Shown: positions 27,298 to 48,381 of the stretch, piece by piece
Layout: every line of letters starts with the position of its first letter
Position numbering within the stretch: position 1 is the stretch's first letter
Program-made: the position numbers and the translations under genes
Assembly (NCBI GenBank): GCA_900314495.1
Contig: OMVJ01000019.1
Coordinates: forward strand, 1 to 48,610
Source: an uncultured Olsenella sp.
GTDB taxonomy: Bacteria > Actinomycetota > Coriobacteriia > Coriobacteriales > Atopobiaceae
DNA: 48,610 nt
Reading direction: 5' to 3'
The notes under the pieces: generated by a model
Told to the model about the DNA's origin: nothing
Databases searched by the model: none
Seen by the model: the letters and a program-made list of their open reading frames with translations, nothing else

Positions 27298-28493
27298 ACA
27301 TATTCGAGGACACCGCGCCAAGGGCGCCTCGCAGGAGGCCGCTCAGGGTGGCGGTGTTGGGCTGCTCCGGCTCCATCGGCACGCAGACGCTGGACGTGTG
27401 CCGGCAGCACGCCGACAAGCTGGACGTTGTGGCCATCTCCGTCTTCAACTCGACGGAGTTCGCCGCCAAGGCGGCGCGCGAGTTCGGCGTGTCCCACGTG
27501 GCGGTTGCCAACGCGGCGCACAGGGACGACGCGGCGCTGGAGGGCCTTCCCAAGGGCTGCTCGCTGGGCTTTGGCGAGGACGCCGTGACGGCACTGGCCC
27601 AGCTGCCAGAGGTTGACTGCGTCGTGAACGCCCTGGTCGGCGCCGCAGGAATCGGGGCCGGCTATGCCGCCCTCAAGGCGGGCAAGGTCCTGGCGTACGC
27701 CAACAAGGAGTCCATCGTGGTGGGCGGTGACCTACTCATGCCCTTGGTGAGGCCGGGCCAGTTGATTCCCGTGGACTCCGAGCACAGCGCCATCTACCAG
27801 TGCCTGGTTGGCGAGCGCGGGGCGGACGTTCATTGCATCTGGCTCACCTGTTCCGGCGGGCCCTTCTACGGCCGCACGCGCCAGGAGCTTGCCGGTGTGC
27901 GTGCCGCGGACGCCCTGGCGCACCCCACGTGGAACATGGGCGCCAAGATTACCATCGACTCCGCCTCCCTCATGAACAAGGGGCTGGAGGTCATAGAGGC
28001 GCACCACCTCTTCGACGTGCCCATCGACTCGGTGCGCGTGGTGGTGCAGCGCCAGAGCCGCATCCACTCCATGGTGGAGTTTGCCGACGGCGTCGTGAAG
28101 GCCCAGCTCGGCCCCTCCGACATGCGCATTCCCATCCAGTACGCCCTCAGCTACCCGGAGCGCTGGGAGACCCCGTCCCCCCGCGTGGCCTACGACCAGG
28201 AGCCCCCGGTCACCTTTGGCGAGGCGGACGAGAAGACCTTCGGCTGCCTGGCGCTGGCCAAGCGCGCCGGCAGGGTGGGCGGGACGCTTCCCTGCGTCAT
28301 GAACGCCGCCAACGAGGTTGCCAACGAGGCCTTCCGCCACGACCGCTGCGGCTTCCTGGACATAGAGCGCGTGGTGGCCCAGGTCATGGATGCGAGCGAG
28401 GTCCTTCCGGTGGAGAGCCTGGACCAGCTTGCCGAGGTGGACGCGCGGGCGCGCGCGGCCGCCCGCGAAGCCCTGGCCAAGGTGGTGCGATGA
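27294..28493 (+). CDS. dxr: 1-deoxy-D-xylulose-5-phosphate reductoisomerase
   Basis: From GTG 27294 the protein is 399 aa. It has NADPH-binding VLGCSGSIGTQTLDVC, LVGAAGIGAGYAALKAGKV, YANKESIVVGG, PVDSEHSAIYQC, the metal/substrate stretch NMGAKITIDSASLMNKGLEV, then IHSMVEFADG and MNAANEVANEAF. It catalyses the first committed step of the MEP isoprenoid pathway. AGGGGGAAT precedes the start. cdsA, rseP and this gene overlap by 4 nt each. ispG of the same pathway follows after rseP. Confidence 0.96.
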   Translation: MNIFEDTAPRAPRRRPLRVAVLGCSGSIGTQTLDVCRQHADKLDVVAISVFNSTEFAAKAAREFGVSHVAVANAAHRDDAALEGLPKGCSLGFGEDAVTALAQLPEVDCVVNALVGAAGIGAGYAALKAGKVLAYANKESIVVGGDLLMPLVRPGQLIPVDSEHSAIYQCLVGERGADVHCIWLTCSGGPFYGRTRQELAGVRAADALAHPTWNMGAKITIDSASLMNKGLEVIEAHHLFDVPIDSVRVVVQRQSRIHSMVEFADGVVKAQLGPSDMRIPIQYALSYPERWETPSPRVAYDQEPPVTFGEADEKTFGCLALAKRAGRVGGTLPCVMNAANEVANEAFRHDRCGFLDIERVVAQVMDASEVLPVESLDQLAEVDARARAAAREALAKVVR

Positions 28494-29875
28494 GCGTGGT
28501 CCTGAGCGTTGTCTCGGCGGTCTTCTGGGGCCTGCTGGTGCTCTCGCTGCTGGTCTTCGTGCACGAGGGCGGCCACTACCTGGCGGCCCGCGCGTGCGGG
28601 GTGCGCGTGACGGAGTTCTTCCTGGGGCTTCCGTGCCCGGTAAAGCTGTCGCACAAGAGCAGGGAGTACGGCACGGAGATCGGCGTCACGCCCGTGCTCC
28701 TTGGCGGCTACACGCGCATCTGCGGCATGGAGGGCGAGCAGGACGAGCTTCTGGCACCCGCCCTGGCCTGCGTGCAGCGCCACGGCCGGGTGGAGGTGTC
28801 CGCACTGGCGGCGGAGCTGGGTTGCGACGCGGACCGAGCCTACGCGCTGGTTGCCACGCTGACGGACTGGGCCGCCATCCGCCCCTACTACGACGAATCC
28901 CGCGGGGAGAGGCGCGGCCAGAAGGACTGGCCCGCCGCCTTCGAGACCCTGCGGCGCGACGCCAGCCTGCGCACGGAGTACGACCGCGGGCACGACTTTG
29001 CGGGGGAGGGCGTGACCGACTACGGCCAGCCGCGTGCCATTCCCGGCAGCGCAGACCGCTTCCTGCAGCGCGAGAGGTCCCACACATACCTGGGCTGCGG
29101 CTTCTGGAAGCGCTTCGCCATGCTGGTGGCCGGCCCCCTGGTGAACATAGTGGTCGCATTGGTGCTGGTCATGACCATGCTCACGGCGGTGGGCATCACC
29201 GTGGCGACGGGCTCCAACGTGGTGGGCGGCATCACACCGGGCTCCTTTGCCGAGGCCGCAGGCCTCCAGGTGGGCGACCGCATCACCAAGGTGGGTGAAG
29301 TGCAGACCCCCGACTGGCAGACCCTCTCGGATGCCCTGGACGCGCCCTTGGCGGCGGGCCGGGACTTCACGCTCACCTACGAGCGCGACGGCCAGGCCAC
29401 CACCGTGACCATAGATGTTAAGGACGGCGCGCAGGCCCAGTACCTGGGCATATACGAGGAGACGCAGGCCATGCGCATGGGCTTGGGCCAGGCCTTCATG
29501 CAGTCAATTGCCTACGCCAGGATGGTCGGCGAGTTCGCGGCCAGGCTCGTCATGCCCCAGCACACCATGGAGGTCCTCAACACGTCCAGCTCCATCGTGG
29601 GCATCTCCGTCATGGCAAGCGAGGCGGCGTCCACCAGCGCGGCGGACCTCATCTCCGTGGTGGCGGCAATCTCCATGTCGCTCGGCTTCATGAACCTGCT
29701 GCCCATTCCGCCCCTGGACGGCGGCAAGGTGCTCATAGAGGTCGTGCAGGTGGTCATACGCAGGCAGCTCTCCATGAAGGCGCAGGCCGCCGTCAGCTAC
29801 GTTGGCCTGGCCTTCTTCATGTTCGTCTTCGTGGTGGTACTCAGGAATGACATCATGCGCTTCGTGATAGGCTAG
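28490..29875 (+). CDS. rseP: Site-2 (RseP/M50) zinc metalloprotease with an insertion
   Basis: The 461-aa membrane protease starts at ATG 28490, overlapping dxr. The zinc site HEGGH is at about residue 25 in the first membrane helix, and the third ligand motif NLLPIPPLDGGKV is at about residue 403. A PDZ domain (VVGGITPGSFAEAAGLQVGD) begins at about 245. Residues about 80-195, between the first helix hairpin and the GFWKRFAMLVAGPLVN helix, form a long soluble insert. It contains a helix-turn-helix-like stretch (VEVSALAAELGCDADRAYA) not in the textbook family plan. Confidence 0.92.
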   Translation: MSVVLSVVSAVFWGLLVLSLLVFVHEGGHYLAARACGVRVTEFFLGLPCPVKLSHKSREYGTEIGVTPVLLGGYTRICGMEGEQDELLAPALACVQRHGRVEVSALAAELGCDADRAYALVATLTDWAAIRPYYDESRGERRGQKDWPAAFETLRRDASLRTEYDRGHDFAGEGVTDYGQPRAIPGSADRFLQRERSHTYLGCGFWKRFAMLVAGPLVNIVVALVLVMTMLTAVGITVATGSNVVGGITPGSFAEAAGLQVGDRITKVGEVQTPDWQTLSDALDAPLAAGRDFTLTYERDGQATTVTIDVKDGAQAQYLGIYEETQAMRMGLGQAFMQSIAYARMVGEFAARLVMPQHTMEVLNTSSSIVGISVMASEAASTSAADLISVVAAISMSLGFMNLLPIPPLDGGKVLIEVVQVVIRRQLSMKAQAAVSYVGLAFFMFVFVVVLRNDIMRFVIG

Positions 29876-29884
29876 GTGATTCTT

Positions 29885-30958
29885 ATGGCACAGAAGGTTC
29901 CCGCCCCGCGCGAGCTGACGCACCAGGTGCACGTGGGCGCGGTGCCCATCGGCGGCGGCGCGCCCGTCTCCGTGCAGTCCATGTGCACGACCAAGACATC
30001 GGACGCGGACGCCGCACTGGCGCAGATTCGCCGCTTGGCCGACGCCGGGTGCGAGATAATCCGTGTCACCCTGCCGCGCAAGGATGACGTGGCCAGCTTC
30101 GCCCGCATATGCGAGGAGAGCCCCCTGCCCGTCATCGCAGACATCCACTTCGACTACCGCCTGGCCGTGGCCGCCGCGCAGAACGGGGCCGCCGGCCTGC
30201 GCATCAACCCCGGTAACATCGGCGACTGGGCGCGCGTGGACGCGGCCATAGACGCGGCGGGGGAGGCGGGCATTCCCATCCGCATCGGCGTGAACATGGG
30301 CTCGCTGGACAAGGAGGTGGACGCGCGGGAGGACCTGGACGGCCCCGGCAAGCTGGTGGCCTCCGCGGTCTCGTTCGTGGACCACTTCCGCCAGCGCGGC
30401 TTCAATGACATCGTGCTTTCCGCCAAGGCGCACTCCGTGCCGGTGACCATTGCCACCTACCGCGAGCTTTCCCGCCTGCTGCCCGACGTCCCGCTGCACG
30501 TGGGCGTGACGGAGGCCGGCACCTTCCTGCAGGGAACGGTGAAGAACTGCGCGGCCGTGGGCGTGCTGCTTGAGCAGGGCATCGGCGACACCATGCGGCT
30601 CTCGCTCACGGCGGACCCGGTGGAGGAGGTCAACGTGTGCTGGGAGCTGCTGGCGGCTCTGGGCATGCGTCGCCTGCACCCGGAGCTGGTGAGCTGCCCC
30701 ACCTGCGGCCGCACGCAGGTTGACCTCATCCCCATTGCGGAGGAGGTCGAGCGCCGCCTGAAGTCCGTGAAGGCGCCGATCTCCGTCGCGGTCATGGGCT
30801 GCGTGGTGAACGGCCCCGGCGAGGCCCGCGGCTGCGACATAGGCGTGGCGTGCGGCCAGGGAGTGGGGCTCCTCTTCGTGAACGGCGAGCCCCTGCGCAA
30901 GGTGCCCGAGGACGCCATAGTGGACGAGCTGTTCAAGGAGATCGCGGCGCGGTACTGA
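29885..30958 (+). CDS. ispG: 4-hydroxy-3-methylbut-2-enyl-diphosphate synthase
   Basis: ATG 29885 is chosen (AGGTGATT upstream) over GTG 29876; 357 aa. The TIM barrel begins VPIGGGAPVSVQSMCTTKT, with PVIADIHFDYRLAV and GLRINPGNIG. The C-terminal 4Fe-4S domain has SCPTCGRTQVDL and GCVVNGPGEAR, giving the three Cys and the conserved Glu. It performs the penultimate MEP step and needs reduced flavodoxin or ferredoxin. It follows rseP by 9 nt. dxr, two genes upstream, is in the same pathway. Confidence 0.96.
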   Translation: MAQKVPAPRELTHQVHVGAVPIGGGAPVSVQSMCTTKTSDADAALAQIRRLADAGCEIIRVTLPRKDDVASFARICEESPLPVIADIHFDYRLAVAAAQNGAAGLRINPGNIGDWARVDAAIDAAGEAGIPIRIGVNMGSLDKEVDAREDLDGPGKLVASAVSFVDHFRQRGFNDIVLSAKAHSVPVTIATYRELSRLLPDVPLHVGVTEAGTFLQGTVKNCAAVGVLLEQGIGDTMRLSLTADPVEEVNVCWELLAALGMRRLHPELVSCPTCGRTQVDLIPIAEEVERRLKSVKAPISVAVMGCVVNGPGEARGCDIGVACGQGVGLLFVNGEPLRKVPEDAIVDELFKEIAARY

Positions 30959-31000
30959 GCTGGTGCCATTCGCGCGCGCGGCCGCCCTGTGGCTGCCCGC

Positions 31001-31156
31001 AATAACACACGCGCCATGGCACGCGTGTTATTGGTTGCCGGTAACACGCGTGCTGCTGCGCCGCATGATCCGCAACTGGCCTTGTAGCACGTGCGAATCC
31101 CCACGCGCATGTTAACCGAACCAAATAACATACGCGTGACCGCGCGCGTGTTATTT
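31001..31156. repeat. Cluster of three inverted repeats built on one motif
   Basis: The half-site CGCGTGTTATT (or close variants) occurs six times between ispG and proS, in three converging pairs. The pairs are a 32-bp palindrome 31001-31032 centred on CCATGG, a spaced pair at 31039-31052 and 31102-31118, and a 34-bp palindrome at 31123-31156. There is no U-tract. The remaining leader to 31374 holds a TAAAAT -10-like box at 31256-31261 and no recognisable T-box. Confidence 0.7.
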
Positions 31157-31374
31157 CGCGCGTCATGTGATCACGTACGCAGCGTTCGATGGCACGTTGG
31201 CGCTTGGCGCCGCACTACGCTCGCCATCCCCGTGGCCCCGCGCCGCGTCTAGGGCTAAAATATGTAACCGTCTGCGTCCGCATCGCCTTCACCGGCACGG
31301 GCCAGGACGTAACTTGCTTGCCTGCCGTCGTACGGCTTGAGCTTTGGGCATACCGCCCGGGAAAGGAACCATCC

Positions 31375-33090
31375 GTGAAGTCATACGCTAAGATGTCCAA
31401 GGTCTACGCGCCCACCCTCAAGGAGGACCCGGCGGAGGCGGAGCTGGCCAGCCACCGCCTGCTGCTCCGTGCCGGCCTCATCCGCAAGCACGCGTCCGGC
31501 CTCTACACCTACCTGCCGCTTGCCTGGCGGTCCCTGCTCAAGATCGAGCAGGTCATCCGCGAGGAGATGGAGGGCATTGACGCGCAGGAGATGCGCGTGC
31601 CCATCCTCACGGACGCCGGCCTCTGGCAGCAGTCCCACCGCTGGGGCGCCTACGGCCCGGAGCTCATGCGCATCGTGGACCGTCACGGCCGCGAGTTCGC
31701 CCTCGGCCCCACGCACGAGGAGGCCTTCACGGACGTCGTCCGCGGCGAGCTGCGCTCCTACAAGCAGCTGCCCGTCACCCTGTGGCAGATGCAGGACAAG
31801 TTCCGCGACGAGCTGCGCCCCCGCTTCGGCCTCATGCGCAGCCGCGAGTTCATCATGAAGGACGCCTACTCCTTCGCCTCCACGGACCAGATGTCGCGCC
31901 AGTGCTACGAGGACGAGAAGGGCGCCTACCAGCGCATCTTCGACCGCTGCGGCATCCGCACCCTGCAGGTTGCCGCCGACACCGGCGAGATTGGCGGTGA
32001 CTCCTCCGTGGAGTTCATGGCCATCGCGGACGCGGGCGAGGCTGAGCTGGTGTACTGCGACGACTGCGGCTTCGCGGCCGACACCGAGGCCGCCACGGCC
32101 AAGGTGGCCATCTCCGAGGGCGAGGCGGGCGATCTGCAGAAGGTCTCCACCCCCAACGCCGGCTCCATCGCGGACGTGGCCGCCTTCCTGGGCGTGCCGG
32201 AGAACGGCACTCGCAAGGCGCTGGCCCTGGTGGACGGCAACGGCACCCCGACGGTGGTCTTCGTCCCCGGCGACCACGACATGAACGACTGCAAGGCCAG
32301 CCACGCCTTCGGCGACTACCACATGATGACGGACGAGGAGATTCAGTACTACGGCCTGGTCAAGGGCTTCATGGGCCCGATCGGCCTGCCCGAGGGCGTC
32401 CGCGTCTGCGCTGACGAGACCCTGCGCAGCAGCGAGTGGTGGCTGGTCGGCGCCAACGAGAAGGACTTCCACTTCGTCCACGCCAAGCAGGGCCGCGACT
32501 TCACCATCCCGGAGTGGGTGGACGTCATCACCGCCAAGCCCGGCGACACCTGCCCCGTCTGCGGCCAGCCCCTCAAGGGCGCGCGCGGCATCGAGTGCGG
32601 CCAGGTCTTCTCCTTCGGTGACAAGTACTCCGCCTCCATGGGCGTCACCTTCACGGACGAGGACGGCCAGGAGAAGCCCTTCCTCATGGGCTCCTACGGC
32701 ATCGGCGTCTCCCGCACGCTGGCGGCCGTGGTGGAGCAGCACCACGACGACAAGGGCATCAAGTTCCCCGTGTGCGTGGCCCCCTACGAGGTTGAGATCG
32801 TCCCCCTGACCGTGGGTGACGACGTGGTGTGGCCCGTGGCGGACCAGATTGCCAATGAGCTGGTGGCCAAGGGCATCGAGGTCGTGGTGGACGACCGCAA
32901 GGAGCGCCCGGGCGTCAAGTTCAACGACGCGGACCTCATGGGCTTCCCCTACCAGGTGGTCATCGGCAAGCGCGGCGCGCAGGCCGGCACCGTGGAGGTC
33001 AAGTGCCGCGAGACGGGCGAGCGCGAGGATGTTTCCATTGCGGACGTTGCCTCCAAGCTTGCGGAAGTCGTCGTTCCGCAGCGCGCGTAA
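31375..33090 (+). CDS. proS: Prolyl-tRNA synthetase
   Basis: I choose GTG 31375 (AAAGGAA 7 nt upstream); ATG 31393, six codons on, is the alternative. 571 aa. Class II motifs include RKHASGLYTYLPLAWR, LGPTHEEAFTDVV, FRDELRPRFGLMRSREFIMKD and GSYGIGVSRTLAAVVEQ. A YbaK-like editing insertion (about 220-400; KALALVDGNGTPTVVFVPGD) marks the bacterial ProS form. Two CxxC pairs (CDDCG, CPVCG) flank it. The C-terminal anticodon domain carries VVDDRKERPGVKFNDADLMG. It charges tRNA-Pro with proline. Confidence 0.96.
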   Translation: MKSYAKMSKVYAPTLKEDPAEAELASHRLLLRAGLIRKHASGLYTYLPLAWRSLLKIEQVIREEMEGIDAQEMRVPILTDAGLWQQSHRWGAYGPELMRIVDRHGREFALGPTHEEAFTDVVRGELRSYKQLPVTLWQMQDKFRDELRPRFGLMRSREFIMKDAYSFASTDQMSRQCYEDEKGAYQRIFDRCGIRTLQVAADTGEIGGDSSVEFMAIADAGEAELVYCDDCGFAADTEAATAKVAISEGEAGDLQKVSTPNAGSIADVAAFLGVPENGTRKALALVDGNGTPTVVFVPGDHDMNDCKASHAFGDYHMMTDEEIQYYGLVKGFMGPIGLPEGVRVCADETLRSSEWWLVGANEKDFHFVHAKQGRDFTIPEWVDVITAKPGDTCPVCGQPLKGARGIECGQVFSFGDKYSASMGVTFTDEDGQEKPFLMGSYGIGVSRTLAAVVEQHHDDKGIKFPVCVAPYEVEIVPLTVGDDVVWPVADQIANELVAKGIEVVVDDRKERPGVKFNDADLMGFPYQVVIGKRGAQAGTVEVKCRETGEREDVSIADVASKLAEVVVPQRA

Positions 33091-33133
33091 CGCGGTGGCA
33101 CTGGGCCTTGTGCCTGCGCATATATGAGTGAGG

Positions 33134-33158
33134 GGCGCCCCGCCGCGTGCGGGGCGCC
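33134..33158 (+). terminator. Hairpin after proS
   Basis: Perfect 10-bp stem GGCGCCCCGC/GCGGGGCGCC with loop CGCGT. There is no U-tract, so termination is likely but not certain. Confidence 0.6.
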
Positions 33159-33214
33159 TGCGTATTCGTCCCGTGTTGCGGACTGCGTCCGCGGGGCGGT
33201 TGGGAGGGCGAGAG

Positions 33215-34243
33215 ATGAACTACCAGGAGATTGCCGCAGCGGCGCGCGGCCGCATGGGCGAGTGGTGCAAGGCCTGCCCCGATTGCGACGGCAGGGCGTG
33301 CGGGGCCCACGTACCGGGGCCGGGCGCCAAGGGCTCGGGCACTGTTGCCATCCGCAACCGGCAGGCCTGGGAGGCCTGGCGGCTCAACATGGACACCATC
33401 CAGGAGGCCTTCGAGCCGGATTGCGGCACCACGGTGCTGGGCCGCAGGCTTTCCCTGCCCGTCATGATCGGCCCGGTGGGCGACGTCAAGCGCCACTACA
33501 GCATGGAGCTCACGGACCTCACCTACAACGAGCGAATCCTGCGCGCCGCGGCCGCGTCGGGAACGGTTGCCTGGACGGGCGACGGCCTGGACGCCAATGT
33601 GGTGATCAACGCGGCGCAGCTCATCGGGCGCATGCAGGGCGCCGGGGTCTCCACCATCAAGCCCTGGGGCATGGACGTGGTATCCCAGAAGGTTGAGGTC
33701 GCCCTTGCCGCGCACCCCTGCATGGTCGCCATGGACATCGACGGTGCGGGCCTGCCCTTCCTCAAGGGCCAGGAGCCTCCCGCCGGCCCCAAGTCCGTTG
33801 GCCAGCTGGCGCAGATTGCGAAGAGGTGCCACGACGGTGGCGCGCCGTTCGTTCTGAAGGGCGTCATGACTGTTGTCGGCGCGCGCAAGGCGCTGGAGGC
33901 CGGCGTGGACGGCATTGTGGTCTCCAACCACGGCGGGCGCGTGCTGGACGGCGTGTCGGCAACTGCCGAGGTGCTGCCAGCCATTGCGGACGAGGTGGCG
34001 GGCAGGATGGCGGTCCTGGTGGACGGCGGAATCCGGACGGGCGTGGACGTCTTCCGCGCGCTGGCCCTTGGTGCGGACGCGGTGCTGATTGCGAGGCCCT
34101 TCGTCGTCGCGGCCTACGGTGCCGGCGAGGAGGGCGTACAGGCCTACCTTGCCCAGCTGAGGGGCGAGCTGGAGGACGTCATGCGCATGTGCGGCACCCC
34201 GGACGTGGCGGCAATCGGAAGGGAGAACCTCTTCCGGGCGTAG
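33215..34243 (+). CDS. FMN-dependent alpha-hydroxy-acid oxidising protein
   Basis: From ATG 33215 (GGGAGGG upstream) the protein is 342 aa. It has the FMN TIM-barrel signature VSNHGGRVLDGV (active-site His and Arg) and the phosphate site LVDGGIRTGVDVFRALALGADAVLIARPF. Upstream are LPVMIGPVGDVKRHY and FVLKGVMTVVGARKA. Such enzymes oxidise lactate, glycolate or similar acids. The N-terminus carries a Cys cluster (CKACPDCDGRAC) seen in a Firmicutes/Coriobacteria subgroup and possibly metal-binding. Substrate unknown. It stands alone between the proS hairpin and a convergent gene. Confidence 0.85.
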   Translation: MNYQEIAAAARGRMGEWCKACPDCDGRACGAHVPGPGAKGSGTVAIRNRQAWEAWRLNMDTIQEAFEPDCGTTVLGRRLSLPVMIGPVGDVKRHYSMELTDLTYNERILRAAAASGTVAWTGDGLDANVVINAAQLIGRMQGAGVSTIKPWGMDVVSQKVEVALAAHPCMVAMDIDGAGLPFLKGQEPPAGPKSVGQLAQIAKRCHDGGAPFVLKGVMTVVGARKALEAGVDGIVVSNHGGRVLDGVSATAEVLPAIADEVAGRMAVLVDGGIRTGVDVFRALALGADAVLIARPFVVAAYGAGEEGVQAYLAQLRGELEDVMRMCGTPDVAAIGRENLFRA

Positions 34244-35977: not shown

Positions 35978-36052
35978 GCGCGCGTAGCACAAAGGTCAGG
36001 GCAGTGGACTTATAATCCATCGATCAAGGTTCGAGTCCTTGCGCGCGCACCA
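35978..36052 (+). tRNA. tRNA-Ile (anticodon UAU)
   Basis: The acceptor GCGCGCG pairs perfectly with CGCGCGC. Anticodon stem GTGGA/TCCAT encloses the 7-nt loop CTTATAA, giving anticodon TAT at positions 34-36. T-arm CAAGG-TTCGAGT-CCTTG; encoded CCA at 36050-36052. It reads AUA directly. Most bacteria instead use a CAU anticodon modified to lysidine. Confidence 0.9.
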
Positions 36053-40209: not shown

Positions 40210-40241
40210 AAAAACCCCGCCTCGCATGCTGCGAGACGGGG
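40210..40241 (-). terminator. Terminator of the minus-strand tRNA-Ala
   Basis: On the minus strand, CCCCGTCTCGCA pairs with TGCGAGGCGGGG, followed by TTTTT. Confidence 0.9.
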
Positions 40242-40253
40242 CCCGAGTCTACC

Positions 40254-40329
40254 TGGTGGAGAATAGGGGATTCGAACCCCTGACCTCATGACTGCCAGTC
40301 ATGCGCTCTCCCAACTGAGCTAATTCCCC
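40254..40329 (-). tRNA. tRNA-Ala (anticodon GGC), copy 1
   Basis: 76 nt including CCA. Acceptor GGGGAAT/ATTCTCC; anticodon arm CATGA-CTGGCAG-TCATG with anticodon GGC; T-arm AGGGG-TTCGAAT-CCCCT. Identical to the copy at 42336, which lies in the opposite orientation. No clear promoter precedes this copy; only an AT stretch (AAATAAAT) is present. Confidence 0.95.
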
Positions 40330-40453
40330 ATGAGTTATTTATTTGGAAAGTTGGCTCACAGGCGCTGTAGCAGCCGCACCAACATGGCTGACACCTTGCG
40401 CGTTCGGCGCTCGCCGACCGCAGCACGAACCGCCAGGAGCGCCCCGGACCCCC

Positions 40454-40545
40454 TTGTCGGCAGTTGGTGTACTCCCACTAGCGACAAATACAGGCTGCTT
40501 TGGGGCCCATTTTGTCCGAAGTTGGTGTACTCCAAACTCACACGG
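40454..40545. repeat. Palindromic repeat pair, left copy
   Basis: Two related units: 40454-40487 (TTGTCGGCAGTTGG, then TGTACTCC, ending GCGACAA) and 40511-40545 (TTTGTCCGAAGTTGG, then TGTACTCC). Each is an imperfect palindrome centred on GTAC. The same units recur inverted at 42040-42129. Confidence 0.75.
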
Positions 40546-40580
40546 CGCGCCCAGAAGGGCCCCGCACCGCACGGTCGCCG

Positions 40581-41729
40581 CTATTCGCCCAACCGTCTCG
40601 GCAGACTCCAGGGCATCTTCTCGGGCATAGGCTCGTCGGGCTCCACGTACTTCAGCGCCACATGGCCATCCGCCTCGCACCGGACGAGCCAGCCTGACTT
40701 CAGGTGCATCAGGCCGCTCATGTTGGGGTTGATGGGCGGCTCCTCCTGCCGCGGCCCGACGCGCGGAATCCCATACGCCTGCAAGAGCGCGTCAAGCTGC
40801 AGTGGGTGAAACGCGTCATCAAACGAGAAACGCATCAACTTGACCCCGTACGCACCAATGTGTGACTCGCGCATCTTCTCTTTGTAGATCTCCTTCTGCA
40901 TGCTGCGGTCTGGATGCTCAATATCTGGCAGATACTTGTCGATGCCGTCCAACTCCCCAACTGCCAGCGGTTCGTCGCCCTCCAACCAAAGGAAGTCCAC
41001 GCGGTACGCCCTGCCCTCCGTCACGGGGTCGTCTACCCATGCCTGCAGCTCAGGGACCATGCGCCCCAGTCGAATTACCGAAGCGCGCGCAATGGACTCG
41101 CCACCGTTCTCCGCACGACCATCCGCATACGACGCCGTCCTGATGGCGTGATCAAGGCCCCGCACGAGCCCCATCTTCTTCACCGCCTCCAGATACCCGA
41201 CCAGCTGGCGCGCATTCCAGCCCAGCTTCCGCACGCCAGAGTCCGCGATAGCCAGACCATACGTAAATCCCAGCACCCGAAGACAATCGACCAGCGTCCT
41301 CGGCACGGATGTTGCACGAAGCTGCCCCACGCTCACAACGTCCGGATACTTGATCTGATGGAAGTGGACCCCATTCCGCCTTCGGCTGCGAGGTTCTCCA
41401 TCGCAAGTAACATGTATCTCATCGAGCAGTGCATACGGGACGTCAAGTTCGTGCAAGATGGCAGCGGTTGGCCCGCAGAAGATCCACTGCGGATGCCAGT
41501 TGCCTAGCGCACGCACTTGGTGCAAGTACTTCTCCGTTCGGCTCAAGTCCTGCCAATAGCTCCGCCTCGCATACAATGACCTGCGCGGACGCACGAGGTC
41601 ACCGCTTTCCACGAGCCTCGAGAGGCGCCTTTGCTCAGTCTTGCTTTCCGGCATGGCGCAGCGGCACCCCCGCTCCGCCTCCGTAAGAAGCGCGTCGGTT
41701 GCAGTCCCTGCAGATTCGCCCATGAGCAT
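40581..41729 (-). CDS. AbiEi/DUF559-like protein with predicted PD-(D/E)xK site
   Basis: The 382-aa protein starts at ATG 41729 (GGAGG 5 nt upstream). Residues about 30-75 (QRRLSRLVESGDLVRPRRSL) look like the winged helix of AbiEi-type antitoxins. Residues 80-160 include FCGPTAAILHEL and SVPRTLVDCLRVLG, also AbiEi-like. The C-terminal half shows a nuclease-like pattern: E211 in GGESIAR, D245 in YRVDFLW, E259-x-D261 and K265 in GELDGIDKY, like Vsr/DUF559 proteins. No toxin partner is adjacent. It sits alone between inverted repeats and inverted tRNA-Ala copies, as a single-gene accessory cassette. Confidence 0.7.
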   Translation of the reverse strand: MLMGESAGTATDALLTEAERGCRCAMPESKTEQRRLSRLVESGDLVRPRRSLYARRSYWQDLSRTEKYLHQVRALGNWHPQWIFCGPTAAILHELDVPYALLDEIHVTCDGEPRSRRRNGVHFHQIKYPDVVSVGQLRATSVPRTLVDCLRVLGFTYGLAIADSGVRKLGWNARQLVGYLEAVKKMGLVRGLDHAIRTASYADGRAENGGESIARASVIRLGRMVPELQAWVDDPVTEGRAYRVDFLWLEGDEPLAVGELDGIDKYLPDIEHPDRSMQKEIYKEKMRESHIGAYGVKLMRFSFDDAFHPLQLDALLQAYGIPRVGPRQEEPPINPNMSGLMHLKSGWLVRCEADGHVALKYVEPDEPMPEKMPWSLPRRLGE

Positions 41730-42039
41730 GCCTCCCTCCGCCGCGGAAAACCATCAATCCGCAGTTGCCTTCCCCCATGCGACAACCGTCCTTGGTGAGG
41801 GGCATCTTGCCCACCGGGGCACCAAGTTACACACTCGCCCGCGCGCGGTCGAGAATGGCCGGCGAGCGTAGCCGACGGCGCGCGTAACGTAGAAATGACA
41901 TGTCCCTCAACGTACAAGATTGCGCCTTGCATGCATAACTATGGCATTTACCTGCACAGATGCATTGTGGGTCGCTTGCCTGAACCTCGCGACCTTGTCC
42001 GGAAGTCCGGAAGCCCGGGTCCGGGGTCTGGGGCCAGAT
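41730..42039. other. Upstream region of the cassette gene
   Basis: No gene supported. A hairpin CTTGGTG (41791-41797)/CACCAAG (41820-41826) encloses GGGGCA/TGCCC complementarity. The rest is unremarkable. Confidence 0.35.
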
Positions 42040-42129
42040 GCCGCAACTGGTGTACTCCAACTTCCGACAAAATGGGGGCCATTTGAGGCCCAACCTGTCC
42101 GAATCTGGTGTACACCGAATTCCGACAGG
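42040..42129. repeat. Palindromic repeat pair, right inverted copy
   Basis: 42040-42073 (GCAACTGGTGTACTCC, then AACTTCCGACAAAA) and 42094-42129, a near-perfect 36-bp palindrome starting CCTGTCCGAAT, centred on GGTGTACACC and ending ATTCCGACAGG. The linking GGGGGCC and CAAAATGG segments are the reverse of those at 40500-40516. Confidence 0.75.
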
Positions 42130-42288
42130 CGGAACCATGTGAAACTGAGAAGGATATGCCCTGCCGCCACTTCACACATGGCCAGTCCGCTGCACGACAC
42201 TAGCAGCCGCGGCGCCTACGCCGGCTTTCAAGCTCCTCCAAGCTCCGGCGCTCCCGGGACCATGCCGTCAGATTTTCAAAATTCACGC

Positions 42289-42316
42289 TTGACCCAAGTG
42301 CTTGCTTTGCTAATAT
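42289..42316 (+). promoter_or_regulatory. Promoter of the plus-strand tRNA-Ala
   Basis: TTGACC, 16 nt, TAATAT, about 20 nt before the tRNA. Confidence 0.65.
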
Positions 42317-42335
42317 ATTCAACGCACCAACTCAT

Positions 42336-42411
42336 GGGGAATTAGCTCAGTTGGGAGAGCGCATGACTGGCAGTCATGAGGTCAGGGGTTCGAATCCCCT
42401 ATTCTCCACCA
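42336..42411 (+). tRNA. tRNA-Ala (anticodon GGC), copy 2
   Basis: Identical in sequence to copy 1 over all 76 nt, with anticodon GGC in loop CTGGCAG. Upstream identity continues for AACTCAT and downstream through AGGTAGACTC. It has a recognisable promoter and terminator. Confidence 0.95.
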
Positions 42412-42436
42412 GGTAGACTCTCCACCAGGTAGACTC
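42405..42436 (+). repeat. 16-bp tandem duplication spanning the tRNA 3' end
   Basis: TCCACCAGGTAGACTC occurs twice back to back (42405-42420 and 42421-42436). The first copy contains the last bases and CCA of the tRNA. Copy 1 of the tRNA has a single unit. Confidence 0.9.
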
Positions 42437-42438
42437 GG

Positions 42439-42472
42439 GCCCCACATCGTCTCTCACGATGCGGGGCTTTTT
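42439..42472 (+). terminator. Terminator of the plus-strand tRNA-Ala
   Basis: GCCCC-A-CATCGT pairs with ACGATG-CGGGGC around CTCTC, followed by TTTTT. Confidence 0.9.
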
Positions 42473-43572: not shown

Positions 43573-43647
43573 GGGCGATTGGCTCAGGGGTAGAGCACAT
43601 CCTTCACACGGATGGGGTCGCTGGTTCGAATCCAGCATCGCCCACCA
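43573..43647 (+). tRNA. tRNA-Val (anticodon CAC)
   Basis: Acceptor GGGCGAT/ATCGCCC; anticodon arm CATCC-TTCACAC-GGATG with anticodon CAC; T-arm CTGG-TTCGAAT-CCAG; CCA encoded at 43645-43647. A TATAGT -10 box lies at 43553-43558. It is the probable integration boundary of the mobile element to the right. Confidence 0.95.
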
Positions 43648-43825: not shown

Positions 43826-43945
43826 GTACCGCGCTGTCAAACCGGCCGCGCCTTATTGACCTCATGGCTCAGAGATTCTTCACCAGTACCGCGCTGTCAA
43901 ACCGGCCGCGCCTTATTGACCTCATGGCTCAGAGATTCTTCACCA
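43826..43945 (+). repeat. Tandem 60-bp repeat, two perfect units
   Basis: Units 43826-43885 and 43886-43945 are identical, beginning GTACCGCGCTGTCAAACC and ending TTCACCA. The 60-bp period would keep a reading frame, but no start or ribosome site supports a gene. Confidence 0.92.
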
Positions 43946-43970: not shown

Positions 43971-44270
43971 GGATGACGTTCCTGTCATGCGGTCATGACA
44001 AACCTGTCTGTTTGGCATGACGTTCGCATCATCCCAAACGGATTCCCGAACGGACAGATTTGTCATACGCCTCGGCGCACGGCTGACAATCTGTCAAAGG
44101 AGGGTCGATCCGTCGAACGGGTGGGTCCCTTGGCATGACGGGCTTGTCATCCCAAGGGGTCGACTCGAGACCGTTCGCTGCCTTCCATCGAGGTCGTTGG
44201 CATGACGCATCTGTCATCCCATCGGTTCCTGGGACCTCCAAAACCCTTGGGATGACGTCCCTGTCATTCC
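43971..44270. repeat. Array of five 22-bp dyads
   Basis: Consensus GGCATGACG, four variable bases, TGTCATCCC. Copies at about 43971-43990 (shorter left end), 44014-44035, 44132-44153, 44199-44220 and 44249-44270. Flanking bases extend the dyad in copies 2 and 3 (TTTGG/CCAAA and CCTTGG/CCAAGG). Half-sites occur near 43992 and 44058. No gene fits in 43946-44248. The last copy overlaps the 3' end of the next gene. Confidence 0.85.
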
Positions 44271-44671
44271 ATGCCCTCCTCGCGCCTTCTCCTGTCCCAC
44301 TCCACGCGCTCCTTGCGGTTGAGGATGTTCGATCCGTCCTCTGGCCCGAGCTTGGGGACGCCGAGCCTGTAGGAAGCCGCATGGCCCCGCGTGGCCTCCC
44401 TGTCGTACTCGAGGATGGGGAACTCGTAGCCACCCCGGCTCACGTAGCGCCTCCTCAGGAGGCTCGCCAGGCGGTGCCTCACGGTGTCCTCGTCGAGGCC
44501 GGTGTACTTGCAGATGGTTGGCACGCCCATGGAGAGGACGCTGCTGCCCTCCTTCTGCCAGCGCAGGAGCGCCACGAGCACGGCCCACTCCTGTCCGGAG
44601 GCGCCAGACTGCACCAGGGCGTGCACAACGGGCCCCCAGACGCGCGAGTAGGATGCCGACTCCTCCGACAT
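44264..44671 (-). CDS. Winged-helix (HTH_36-like) DNA-binding protein
   Basis: 135 aa from ATG 44671, 2 nt after the upstream stop (coupled; no separate ribosome site). The middle shows a winged-helix layout: WAVLVALLRWQKEGSSVLSM, then VPTICKYTGLDEDTVRHRLASLLRRRYVSRG. Such domains occur in replication initiators and regulators of mobile elements. The C-terminus is strongly basic and acidic (RKERVEWDRRRREEG). Its 3' end contains the last of the five dyads, so it could bind them and control itself or act at an origin. That is inference from position only. Confidence 0.7.
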   Translation of the reverse strand: MSEESASYSRVWGPVVHALVQSGASGQEWAVLVALLRWQKEGSSVLSMGVPTICKYTGLDEDTVRHRLASLLRRRYVSRGGYEFPILEYDREATRGHAASYRLGVPKLGPEDGSNILNRKERVEWDRRRREEGME

Positions 44672-44673
44672 CG

Positions 44674-44865
44674 TTATTCGAGCCCGGCGGCCTCGCGCAG
44701 GGCGCGCCTGTTGATGCGCCACTGGCAGCCGATCCTCACGGCCTTGAGCTTGCCGTCCAGACAGAGCCTGTTGACCGTCCTTGTCGAGACGTTGAGCATC
44801 CTCGCCGCCTCGACGATCGATATGAGCTCAGGCTCCCTCTGCGTCCTCGTTGTTCTTTCCGTCAT
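44674..44865 (-). CDS. Excisionase-like helix-turn-helix protein
   Basis: The 63-aa protein has the HTH_17/Xis form: ISIVEAARMLNVSTRTVNRL, then KLKAVRIGCQWRINRRALREAAG. The first part is the helix-turn-helix and the second the wing with the conserved Arg, Trp-Arg and Ile. GGAGG lies 9 nt before ATG 44865. Such proteins direct excision with a tyrosine integrase or regulate transfer genes. The integrase is not in the window. It is coupled to the winged-helix gene downstream. Confidence 0.82.
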   Translation of the reverse strand: MTERTTRTQREPELISIVEAARMLNVSTRTVNRLCLDGKLKAVRIGCQWRINRRALREAAGLE

Positions 44866-44954
44866 GCGTTCGCCTCCCTGTGGTAGGAATTCACTGCCTG
44901 ACGGCGATGTTCGCGAAAACGGGGACTCGGCGCTCGTGGCGACGGACGATAAGT

Positions 44955-44973
44955 GTCCCTAAGCGTCCCTAAG
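44955..44973. repeat. Two direct GTCCCTAAG repeats
   Basis: GTCCCTAAG at 44955-44963 and 44965-44973, a 10-nt period, upstream of the excisionase-like gene. It could be an operator. Confidence 0.5.
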
Positions 44974-44998
44974 GAGCTGAGTCATACAATCTTCACAA

Positions 44999-45523
44999 CT
45001 AGACGGGGAAGGCGCCATCCTCGGGAGAGCCGTATCCAGCCATTCTCGAGAGGGTCTCGTAGCTCGAGGGCGTCAGCCCGAGCATTGCGCAGGCTCGTTC
45101 GTGGGAGTCCCTGCGCGTAGGAAGGACCTGCAGCAGCGTGTCATGCAGCCACACCGCTCTGCCTTCCATGGTGGTTGAGGGGCCTTCGTGCATGAGGTCG
45201 GAGATCTCGTCAAGCCGCGCGACGTCGCACAGGTCATCGCCGATGCGGAGCCATTGGAGGCCACCGTCTATCTCGATCGAGCGCACGTGGGCGAGCTCCT
45301 CCGCGTTGAGGAGGTGGATCCTGCAGCCGGGGAGCCGTGTCGCGAGCCCATCGGAGCTGGCGGTCGGCACGCGATACCAGCTGACGTCGGCCCATGCGCC
45401 GTCGCCGATCGTAATGTGTATGTCGGTGAGGGCGTTGGGGCGCCCGAGCGCACTCTCGGTCGTGAGCGTGCTTGTGTCGAACTCCTCGACGGAACCGTCC
45501 TCGTAACGCACGGTCACCCTCAT
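44999..45523 (-). CDS. Mobile-element protein of unknown function
   Basis: 174 aa from ATG 45523, overlapping the relaxase stop by ATGA, with AGAGGGA upstream. The sequence MRVTVRYEDGSVEEFDTSTL, WADVSWYRV, CRIHLLNAEEL, IEIDGGLQWLRIGDDL looks like a compact beta-rich cytosolic protein. The tail (RDSHERACAMLGLTPSSYETL) may be a short helical motif. I do not recognise a family. Coupling to the relaxase suggests an accessory mobilization or regulatory role. Confidence 0.7.
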   Translation of the reverse strand: MRVTVRYEDGSVEEFDTSTLTTESALGRPNALTDIHITIGDGAWADVSWYRVPTASSDGLATRLPGCRIHLLNAEELAHVRSIEIDGGLQWLRIGDDLCDVARLDEISDLMHEGPSTTMEGRAVWLHDTLLQVLPTRRDSHERACAMLGLTPSSYETLSRMAGYGSPEDGAFPV

Positions 45524-46758
45524 CTTTGGTCCCTCTCCCTGCTGTGGCTCTGCTGAATGCTGCGCTGCCGCATGTCGCCCGAATGTTGCTGCTGTCGGGT
45601 CGTCCTTGCGGAATGGCCGGGCCGCTGCCCAGATGCCCTGCGCACGCCGCCAGGGTTCGTCTCTGGCAGCATGTTGTGGGTCGCGCAGTACTCACGTGCG
45701 CGCTCGAGCCTTTGGGCGGCCGCTTCCTTCCCGGTGGTTCTACGGGTACGCTCGATTGCGAGGTCGATGCCCCTTAGGCTCGTGAACCCGCCTCGGGACA
45801 CGACGTCCACGGCCTCGGAGAGTCGTGCGAGCTCGCCTAGGTCACGGACTTCGATGGCGTGCGCCGCGACTATCCTCGCTTCGTCCGCTGTGAGGGTGTC
45901 GGGCTTTGTCCTGACCGGACTCCTCAGCCAGGAGGTCACTTCCTGTCTGGTGTAAGAGGCCCCGAGCCTCGATCCTGTGACCTGCCTGGAAGGGGCCTCG
46001 GAAAGCGAGTACACCCAGTCGCCCTTCGTGCCAGCAGACTCGCGGATGTCGACTCCCATGCCTGTCAGAGCGGCCTCGAAGTCGCTGAGGTCGCGTGCGA
46101 TCCCCTTGGCAATGTCCACGCGGGCCCTTATGTCGGCGACCCATGAGTACTCGCCTCGATGGACGAGCGAGCGCTCGGAGGCACGAACGTTCCTTCGCGC
46201 GTAAGGCCTCGAGTCGGGTACGATTCCGGTCTCCGGGTCCGCGGGCTCGTCGACGTAGGAGGTAAGTCCGTGCTCCCTGACGATTCGCTGCGCCGACCTC
46301 TTGAGAGCCCTAGGGTCCGGGTCCTGGAGCCTGCGGCCCGTCTCGAGGTTCGTGTTGTTCACGATGACGTGGGCGTGCGATATGTGGTGCTCGTTGTCAT
46401 TGTGGTAGACGACGGCGACCTCGTAGTCACCGAAGTTCTCGCGCACCCATGACATGGTGACAGACCGGAGCTCTGAGAGCCCGATTCCGTCCCTCGGGTC
46501 GGGCGAGAAGACATAGTGCTTGTAGGTTCTGGCCTTTCGGCCCCTGTAGGGGGTGTTGTTGCCCATCATGGCCCTCGTCGTGTCCATCACAGACGCCCAG
46601 TCGTAGGCGCCGTATACGGGCTCCCCGTCGTCGGTCAGCCCGACGATCGGCGGCTCGAGGTTGAGGAAGTCCCGAGCGAGGGCGCGTCCGTCGCGCTCGA
46701 GGTAGCGCTGGGCTGCCCCGAGCGTCGTGTGCCCGGAGATTGGCTTTATGTAGGGCAT
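45520..46758 (-). CDS. Relaxase/mobilization nuclease
   Basis: From ATG 46758 (GGAGGCAGACG upstream) the protein is 412 aa. The relaxase domain (PF03432-like) has an N-terminal Tyr-containing stretch (RTYKHYVFSPDP). The metal-binding His set lies in VVYHNDNEHHISHAHVIVNN (H119, H124/125, H128, H130). The C-terminal half is helical and charged. It should nick an oriT and pilot single-strand transfer. No coupling protein or secretion genes are seen, so the element is mobilizable rather than self-transmissible within this window. Confidence 0.88.
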   Translation of the reverse strand: MPYIKPISGHTTLGAAQRYLERDGRALARDFLNLEPPIVGLTDDGEPVYGAYDWASVMDTTRAMMGNNTPYRGRKARTYKHYVFSPDPRDGIGLSELRSVTMSWVRENFGDYEVAVVYHNDNEHHISHAHVIVNNTNLETGRRLQDPDPRALKRSAQRIVREHGLTSYVDEPADPETGIVPDSRPYARRNVRASERSLVHRGEYSWVADIRARVDIAKGIARDLSDFEAALTGMGVDIRESAGTKGDWVYSLSEAPSRQVTGSRLGASYTRQEVTSWLRSPVRTKPDTLTADEARIVAAHAIEVRDLGELARLSEAVDVVSRGGFTSLRGIDLAIERTRRTTGKEAAAQRLERAREYCATHNMLPETNPGGVRRASGQRPGHSARTTRQQQHSGDMRQRSIQQSHSRERDQR

Positions 46759-47201
46759 CGTCTGCCTCCGCGTGCGATCGGATCCGAGTCGGTCCGTGTC
46801 TAGACGGACTTGCCAGAATCCTAGGGGCGCGGGGAATCCCCCGCACGCGACACCCATGACGTGCTGTCAGGGGTGGAGAGGTGGCGCTGCGGTGGAGGGA
46901 CGGTGAGGCACGAGACCGAGGAGCTTAGCGACGAGGACGAGACTCATCGGACTACCGTCCCAAGAGCGGCGCGGACGAGCTATTCCATGGGCCTTGTACA
47001 TGGAATAGGCAGCTCGCTGATATGAAGATCTTCCTGTCAAGGGGCATGGCAAGCCAGCCGGAGGAACGTCTCCCTTCGGCTGGCTGCTGCCTTCTCCTGC
47101 GCGGGCGACGGGTGTCTGGCGGGTCTCTCGACGCACGACTGCTAGTCTGACATCCGCGTGTTGGCTAACGCATTCCGATGCTTCGGCTGGGGATTGTCCG
47201 C
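46759..47201. other. Noncoding region upstream of the relaxase; candidate oriT
   Basis: No gene is convincing. Structures: GGGGAATCCCCC near 46820, perfect 10-bp arms CTATTCCATG (46980-46989)/CATGGAATAG (46999-47008), and a stem AGCCAGCCG (47052-47060)/CGGCTGGCT (47077-47085). Relaxase genes usually lie beside their oriT, so the nick site may be here. Confidence 0.4.
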
Positions 47202-47298
47202 TCGTCTATAAGCGTGCGTGGCCTCCTGGCTGCACATAGCAAGCTCGCGGGTTTCCCCACGCGCCGTCGGGCCCCGCGGCCCGCGCCGGTGGCCTCTG

Positions 47299-48381
47299 TC
47301 AGCGGGCCTCGGCCTCGACGGCCCAGACCCAGCACGCCAGCTCGCGCGCGACGGCGGCGGTCACCACGCAGCGCTGCTTCCCGCGCGACTCGAGGTGATG
47401 CCAGCGGCGGTGGAGTCGCCTGTTCGCGCGCTCCGCGACCTCCGCGACCCGGGGCGGCACGGCCGACATGGCGGCGGATCCCGTCGGCGACGACGGGTTG
47501 TACGGCCTGCCGTGGTGCCACGCCGCCTCGACGAGCATCTTCCTGGCGTGGGAGTTGCCGGTCTTGGTGATGCCTCCCCGCGAGACCCTCTCGCCCGACG
47601 AGCTCTCGGAGGGGACGAGCCCGAGGAACGACGCGAGCGCCGGCGCCCTGTCGAAGCGGGAGAAGTCGCCGACCTCGGCGAGGAGGGAGAACGCGCTGAC
47701 CGTGTTGATGCCCCGCAGGCAGCTGAGCGCCGCGACTCGGCCGCGGTACGCGTCCCCGCCGGCAAGCGCGACCAGCCTGGCGGTGAGCCTCTCCTTCCTG
47801 GCCTCGCACTCCGCCAGGCGCGCGAGCAGCTCGTCCAGCACCATGCGCTCGGGCTCGGTCGGCAGCTCTATCTGCCTCAGCCAGGTGCGGTGGGCCCTCG
47901 TCCAGGTCCCGCCGCCCCAGGTGACCCCCTTCCTGAGGAGGTAGCTCGAGACGGACAGCTTCGCACGGGAGAGCTCGAAGCTCGCGTCGGCCCTCGCGCG
48001 GCAGAGGTCGCGCGCGGCCTCCTCCTCGGCGGGCGGGACCCGCACCTCGACGACGTTCCCGACGGCGAGCATCCTGGCGAGGAAGACCGCGTCGCGCTTG
48101 TCGGTCTTCACCCGGTCCCCGGACGGCCTGAGCATCTTCGACACCGCCCCGACGCCGCACTCGAGGCCGAGCGAGGTGAGCGACCTGGCGAGGTCGAAGC
48201 CCGTGGGGCCGGACTCGTAGACGGCGCGGGCGGGCTGCGGGAGGCCCAAGGCCCACTCGGCGACGGCAGGCGCGTCGTAGCCGAACCTGGCGCTCCTCAC
48301 CTCCCCGGTTTCGTGGTCGAGCGCGGCGGCGCTGATCGAGCGGGCGTGGACGTCGAGCCCGATGCTGGTACGATGTTGCAT
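47299..48381 (-). CDS. IS110-family transposase (DEDD recombinase)
   Basis: The 360-aa protein has the RuvC-like DEDD domain at its N-terminus: D10 in SIGLDVHARS, E56 in AVYESGPTG, and D94 and D97 in VKTDKRDAVFLARML. A Tnp20 domain lies near the C-terminus (LRGINTVSAFSLLAEVGDFS, FLGLVPSESSSGERVSRGGI, GNSHARKMLVEAAWH). It is full length and looks intact. GGAGG is about 9 nt before ATG 48381. IS110 enzymes insert DNA guided by a bridge RNA encoded in the element's noncoding end. Confidence 0.95.
   Translation of the reverse strand: MQHRTSIGLDVHARSISAAALDHETGEVRSARFGYDAPAVAEWALGLPQPARAVYESGPTGFDLARSLTSLGLECGVGAVSKMLRPSGDRVKTDKRDAVFLARMLAVGNVVEVRVPPAEEEAARDLCRARADASFELSRAKLSVSSYLLRKGVTWGGGTWTRAHRTWLRQIELPTEPERMVLDELLARLAECEARKERLTARLVALAGGDAYRGRVAALSCLRGINTVSAFSLLAEVGDFSRFDRAPALASFLGLVPSESSSGERVSRGGITKTGNSHARKMLVEAAWHHGRPYNPSSPTGSAAMSAVPPRVAEVAERANRRLHRRWHHLESRGKQRCVVTAAVARELACWVWAVEAEAR

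Follow-up and report, generated by a model that had tools for sequence, protein, structure and literature searches.

Inverted tRNA-Ala(GGC) genes around an AbiEi-type gene at a tRNA locus of an uncultured Olsenella sp.

The tRNA-Ala pair and its chromosomal surroundings

The window analysed here, a stretch of 48,610 nucleotides from an uncultured Olsenella sp., carries two identical 76-nt tRNA-Ala(GGC) genes, the left copy at 40254–40329 on the minus strand and the right copy at 42336–42411 on the plus strand, which were found by ARAGORN and Rfam and received the same Rfam score of 70 bits. Their 5' ends point inward, so that both are transcribed outwards. Self-alignment placed the pair inside an inverted repeat of 92 nt with 100% identity, whose arms (40245–40336, minus strand, and 42329–42420, plus strand) lie about 2 kb apart and consist of AACTCAT, the tRNA gene and GGTAGACTC. 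These results bear out the description in an earlier note of two identical, inverted and outward-facing genes, and the shared flanks AACTCAT and GGTAGACTC that it listed both lie inside the perfect repeat, which cannot be due to chance. A genome search found no tRNA-Ala(GGC) beyond these two copies; the next-best matches, at no more than 80%, fall on loci carrying tRNA-Ala(CGC), tRNA-Ala(TGC) beside tRNA-Ile(GAT), and tRNA-Phe.

Each copy is followed by a strong terminator hairpin and a T run, at 40212–40244 (minus strand; −26.4 kcal/mol, z −4.68) for the left gene and at 42437–42469 (plus strand; −25.2 kcal/mol for the stretch folded, z −3.0) for the right gene. Their stems differ, as had been claimed, but the two terminators are not unrelated, since the outer arms that include them (40210–40262 versus 42419–42471) are 79% complementary beyond the 92-nt repeat. 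On the inner side, the right tRNA-Ala is preceded by a promoter-like TTGACC-16-TAATAT (42289–42316, plus strand), and no sigma-70-like promoter was recognised in the scan upstream of the left copy. The 3' end of the right tRNA is spanned by a 16-nt tandem duplication, TCTCCACCAGGTAGAC (42403–42434, plus strand), which may reflect either slippage or the scar of an old insertion.

The left side of the locus is anchored by plus-strand genes for an RseP-like protein, IspG, ProS and an FMN-dependent dehydrogenase (28490–34243; Pfam and relatives), with ProS at 31375–33090 (31366–33087 in the search of the contigs) and the dehydrogenase gene, FMN_dh, at 33200–34243 on contig C11, which is this stretch. 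Contig C12 ends with the conserved right side, VOC and ABC-F, next to a palindrome cluster. The pair thus occupies the old tRNA locus that the family carries from IspG-ProS-FMN_dh to VOC/ABC-F; as C11 and C12 are separate in the assembly, its right half is inferred. Relatives have promoter-Ala-Met(CAT) and Val(CAC)-Ala units in this interval, and a tRNA-Val(CAC) of this locus is also present here (43573–43647, plus strand). In this genome, the locus has grown by additional genes, a region with mobilisation genes and an IS110 element. The region at 44264–48381, beside tRNA-Val, represents either the remains or a portion of a mobilisable element and encodes a relaxase (PF03432), a small helix-turn-helix-like protein and, at the contig end, an IS110-family transposase. 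Among the eight genes between 33 and 48 kb that were matched to Pfam, no site-specific recombinase was found except the IS110 transposase. Downstream of tRNA-Val lies a perfect 60-bp tandem duplication (two copies, 43826–43945), adjoined by a run of imperfect ATGACG...GTCAT repeats (43971–44278).

The AbiEi-type gene and the dispersed palindromes

As the earlier note had it, a single plausible gene lies between the two tRNAs, on the minus strand at 40581–41729. It encodes a protein of 382 aa whose N-terminal region matches AbiEi_4 (PF13338) with 26.4 bits, just above the Pfam cut-off of 25, and which also matches the PADLOC AbiEi profiles (2.9e-7). An alignment of 32 family members revealed conserved residues in the C-terminal half (E211, D245, E259-x-D261-G262 and K265), a motif that suggests a PD-(D/E)XK-like nuclease. 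The protein thus resembles the antitoxin of the AbiE type IV toxin-antitoxin systems in its AbiEi_4 and PADLOC matches, but differs from these systems in its nuclease-like C-terminal half and in the lack of a neighbouring gene for the AbiEii nucleotidyltransferase toxin between the tRNAs. Three paralogues with 36–50% identity were identified in this genome, and AbiEi homologues are present in 42 of 100 related genomes searched, with up to five per genome. None of 35 homologue loci, a set in which some loci of the same three paralogues overlap one another, showed a tRNA beside the gene within the examined flanks of about 1.5 kb or more. Searches of a broad contig collection and of viral contigs confirmed no relatives of the lone protein, whereas the search of related genomes gave many distant ones.

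The gene is flanked on either side by a pair of palindromes of about 32 bp each (40455–40544 and, with the same palindromes, 42038–42127), with a consensus of about TGTCSGAAGTTGGTGTACTCCAACTTCSGACA and a period of 58 within the pair. Folding predicted one of the two pairs to be stable as RNA (z −3.9) and the other not (z −1.4). The palindromes previously reported inside the segment are present as two pairs, but they belong to a family with 35 matches in eight clusters across this genome (reversed-pattern control, 0). The clusters are intergenic and contain two to four units each, mostly spaced by 58–59 bp, and the six others adjoin unrelated genes, for instance between the apparent rpsJ and rplC. 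As the clusters are scattered beside unrelated genes, they represent a repeat family dispersed over this genome rather than components of a cassette. The view of the segment as a nearly symmetric unit is likewise not supported: in the self-alignment, symmetry past the tRNA and terminator arms is confined to these palindromes.

At up to two mismatches, 59 relatives yielded zero to one match each, compared with 35 here, and because the palindromes are numerous in this genome only, they have probably spread recently. In their dispersed intergenic clusters, they resemble REP/BIME repeats; unlike those, they are absent from the surroundings of both Y1 (RAYT-like) transposase genes that this genome carries. 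The family appears confined to this genome among the 60 searched, and further clusters were recorded at L040 2108–2314 and in L041–L045.

The palindrome pairs that flank the gene, together with the abundance of the palindromes in this genome alone, would fit an AbiEi-type gene that was inserted with its palindromes, as a repeat-bracketed element, between two old tRNA-Ala copies. We regard such an insertion as unlikely, given that the six other clusters accompany unrelated genes and that the three paralogues lie on contigs without any palindrome match. The placement of the pairs around the gene may instead be chance, or a trace of its insertion history.

Close tRNA-Ala pairs across the family

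Structural comparison of the locus in related genomes revealed that close tRNA-Ala(GGC) pairs recur. By hand count, 31 of 104 family genomes possess at least two copies within 10 kb, in divergent (13 genomes, this one included), convergent (3) or direct (15) orientation. The divergent pair, which the earlier note set apart from the standard layout of a genomic island, is thus not unique and is present in 13 of the 104 genomes. The earlier note had proposed that strains be compared for other content between the tRNAs, and in relatives this content does differ: with genes called by a simple codon-score script and named by eye, the pairs enclose a transglycosylase, a fucosidase-like protein, a Y1 transposase, a surface protein or nothing, the genes being unrelated from genus to genus. 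Two congeners share with this stretch the tRNAs and their near flanks alone, and lack the AbiEi-type gene there. In another family member, G052, a Y1 (RAYT-like) transposase gene, identified by eye, lies in the interval of about 1 kb between two divergent tRNA-Ala(GGC) genes (L085 3313–4065). No paper on this tRNA locus was found among open-access titles and abstracts.

Duplicated tRNA genes are kept identical by selection and gene conversion. The pair described here conforms to this pattern in its two identical mature genes and its species-specific short flanks, shared within the genome, and departs from it in that the copies are inverted and close, whereas other genomes of the family have direct and convergent copies as well.

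An accessory gene beside tRNA genes also recalls tRNA-anchored genomic islands, and a mobile cassette or island with a tRNA at both ends, the second brought by the element itself, was therefore weighed. Its traces could include the 16 nt duplicated in tandem at the 3' end of the right tRNA and the relaxase and IS110 element to the right of tRNA-Val. The tRNA 3' end was also matched in four stretches of viral contigs; the one examined, a phage on an unrelated contig, carries an apparent attP core with the same 3' sequence beside a tyrosine-integrase-like gene. This match was judged generic, and an exact-pattern scan of the broad contig collection for the tRNA end with its flank returned nothing. 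By contrast with such islands, neither the predicted reading frames nor Pfam revealed an integrase or recombinase gene between the two copies, both tRNAs are complete, and the repeat is inverted and not direct: the two segment ends are not marked by direct repeats of the tRNA 3' end, of which a 16-nt tandem copy is present at one end only. In relatives, moreover, no gene set is common to the content between the pairs, and in five genomes (G078, G118, G127, G135 and G137) no gene besides tRNAs was called there. A mobile element of this kind is consequently quite unlikely. With no recombinase between the tRNAs, the AbiEi-type gene at many tRNA-free sites and the palindromes dispersed, the accessory cassette of the earlier note is not supported as a defined unit.

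Inversions at the tRNA locus and the origin of the pair

Homologous recombination between repeats in inverted orientation, for instance rRNA operons or IS copies, gives rise to inversions. In genus g4, at least nine arrangement changes were counted over 23 species, and supported sisters differ in arrangement, on a quickly built tree from ProS, FMN_dh and IspG with several open forks. The usual units in the other genomes of the genus are promoter-Ala-Met and Val-Ala-terminator (23 and 22 copies), whereas G129 and G136 instead carry Val-Ala-Met and promoter-Ala-terminator in divergent orientation. The upstream flank of their Val-Ala-Met copy resembles that of Val-Ala-terminator (0.94, versus 0.43 for promoter-Ala-Met), while its downstream flank resembles that of promoter-Ala-Met (0.75, versus 0.47 for Val-Ala-terminator). 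The other copy of G129 displays the converse pattern (upstream 0.60 versus 0.38, downstream 0.63 versus 0.46), and the lone Ala copy of G136 is ambiguous on its downstream side (0.53 versus 0.52). The same layout of Val-Ala-Met and a lone Ala was observed in G018, from another genus.

As read from these flanks, the reciprocal pattern in G129 and G136 bears the mark of crossovers within tRNA-Ala copies in inverted orientation, and the comparison shows for the relatives that tRNA-Ala recombination flips segments over evolutionary time. The flank exchange at the repeat is like that of rRNA operon and IS inversions, although it is seen in these relatives and not in this genome, and differs in that the repeat is a single 76-nt tRNA gene and the flipped stretch a few kb. 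The proposal that recombination between the tRNAs could flip the segment is accordingly supported by the recombinants in G129 and G136, but finds no echo in G025 and G071, from another genus, in which a divergent pair and its content are collinear and not flipped. Recombination at the tRNA is not the sole process that reshuffles the locus, because single-unit flips in other species require breakpoints outside tRNA-Ala. The Val-Ala unit of 265 bp is flipped in place between G131 and G133, and between G123 and G124, an inversion spans the entire tRNA block (about 1.4 kb), with the flanks remaining collinear. Inverted intergenic repeats of about 120 bp, composed of GCCAGGTGTATC-like words, lie just outside the latter block (L166 3176–3315 and 5450–5604) and are possible substrates of its inversion.

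The perfect 92-nt inverted repeat and the crossing-over between inverted tRNA-Ala copies in relatives would also be compatible with a phase-variable segment, in which recombination between the tRNAs flips the AbiEi-type gene and thereby alters its expression or that of a neighbour. Such a switch is very unlikely here. There is no recombinase gene between the tRNAs, and the flip boundary would fall in tRNA genes that are followed by strong terminators, making read-in from outside improbable. In addition, congeners lack the gene at this place, and AbiEi homologues occur elsewhere without adjacent tRNAs.

These findings taken together point, in our view with good probability, to an ordinary duplication of a tRNA-Ala gene, in a tRNA locus that is prone to rearrangement and has gained a gene, and to neither a switch nor a mobile cassette. 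The two copies would have come to be divergent here by happenstance, with an AbiEi-type gene of a common kind and two palindrome pairs between them. The copies would stay identical because the mature tRNA is under selection and, probably, because they exchange sequence. Given their inverted orientation, RecA-type crossing-over inside the tRNA could flip the intervening stretch of about 2 kb in this genome too, although its two copies are not a recombinant pair of the kind found in G129 and G136. After such a flip, the sole recognisable promoter would pass from one identical tRNA to the other, and the AbiEi-type gene would keep its inner surroundings. Because the tRNAs are identical and the promoters lie on the inner side, the flip would probably be nearly neutral and silent, with no built-in switch.

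A bolder extension, which we consider doubtful, is that the tRNA-Ala(GGC) pair acts as a standing engine of short inversions throughout the family. Identical tRNA genes in inverted orientation would then serve time and again as crossover sites that reshuffle the interval from ProS to ABC-F, and the locus would collect and flip accessory genes. Independently of this extension, the reciprocal flanks in relatives show that crossovers producing small inversions on an evolutionary time scale can take place in a 76-nt tRNA gene, and a single tRNA locus emerges as a rearrangement hot spot across a whole bacterial family. The comparison with relatives also removes the suspicion that this stretch harbours a new type of cassette.

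A further difference from the relatives concerns the tRNA(CAT) that directly follows tRNA-Ala in their locus. When this genome was searched for tRNA(CAT) with a sequence like that of the relatives, only two tRNA-Lys genes were retrieved, and the same locus here contains a tRNA-Ile(TAT) gene at 35978–36052. This difference suggests that AUA decoding has switched from tRNA-Ile2(CAU) to tRNA-Ile(UAU), in which case the tRNA of the relatives would be Ile2 and not Met.
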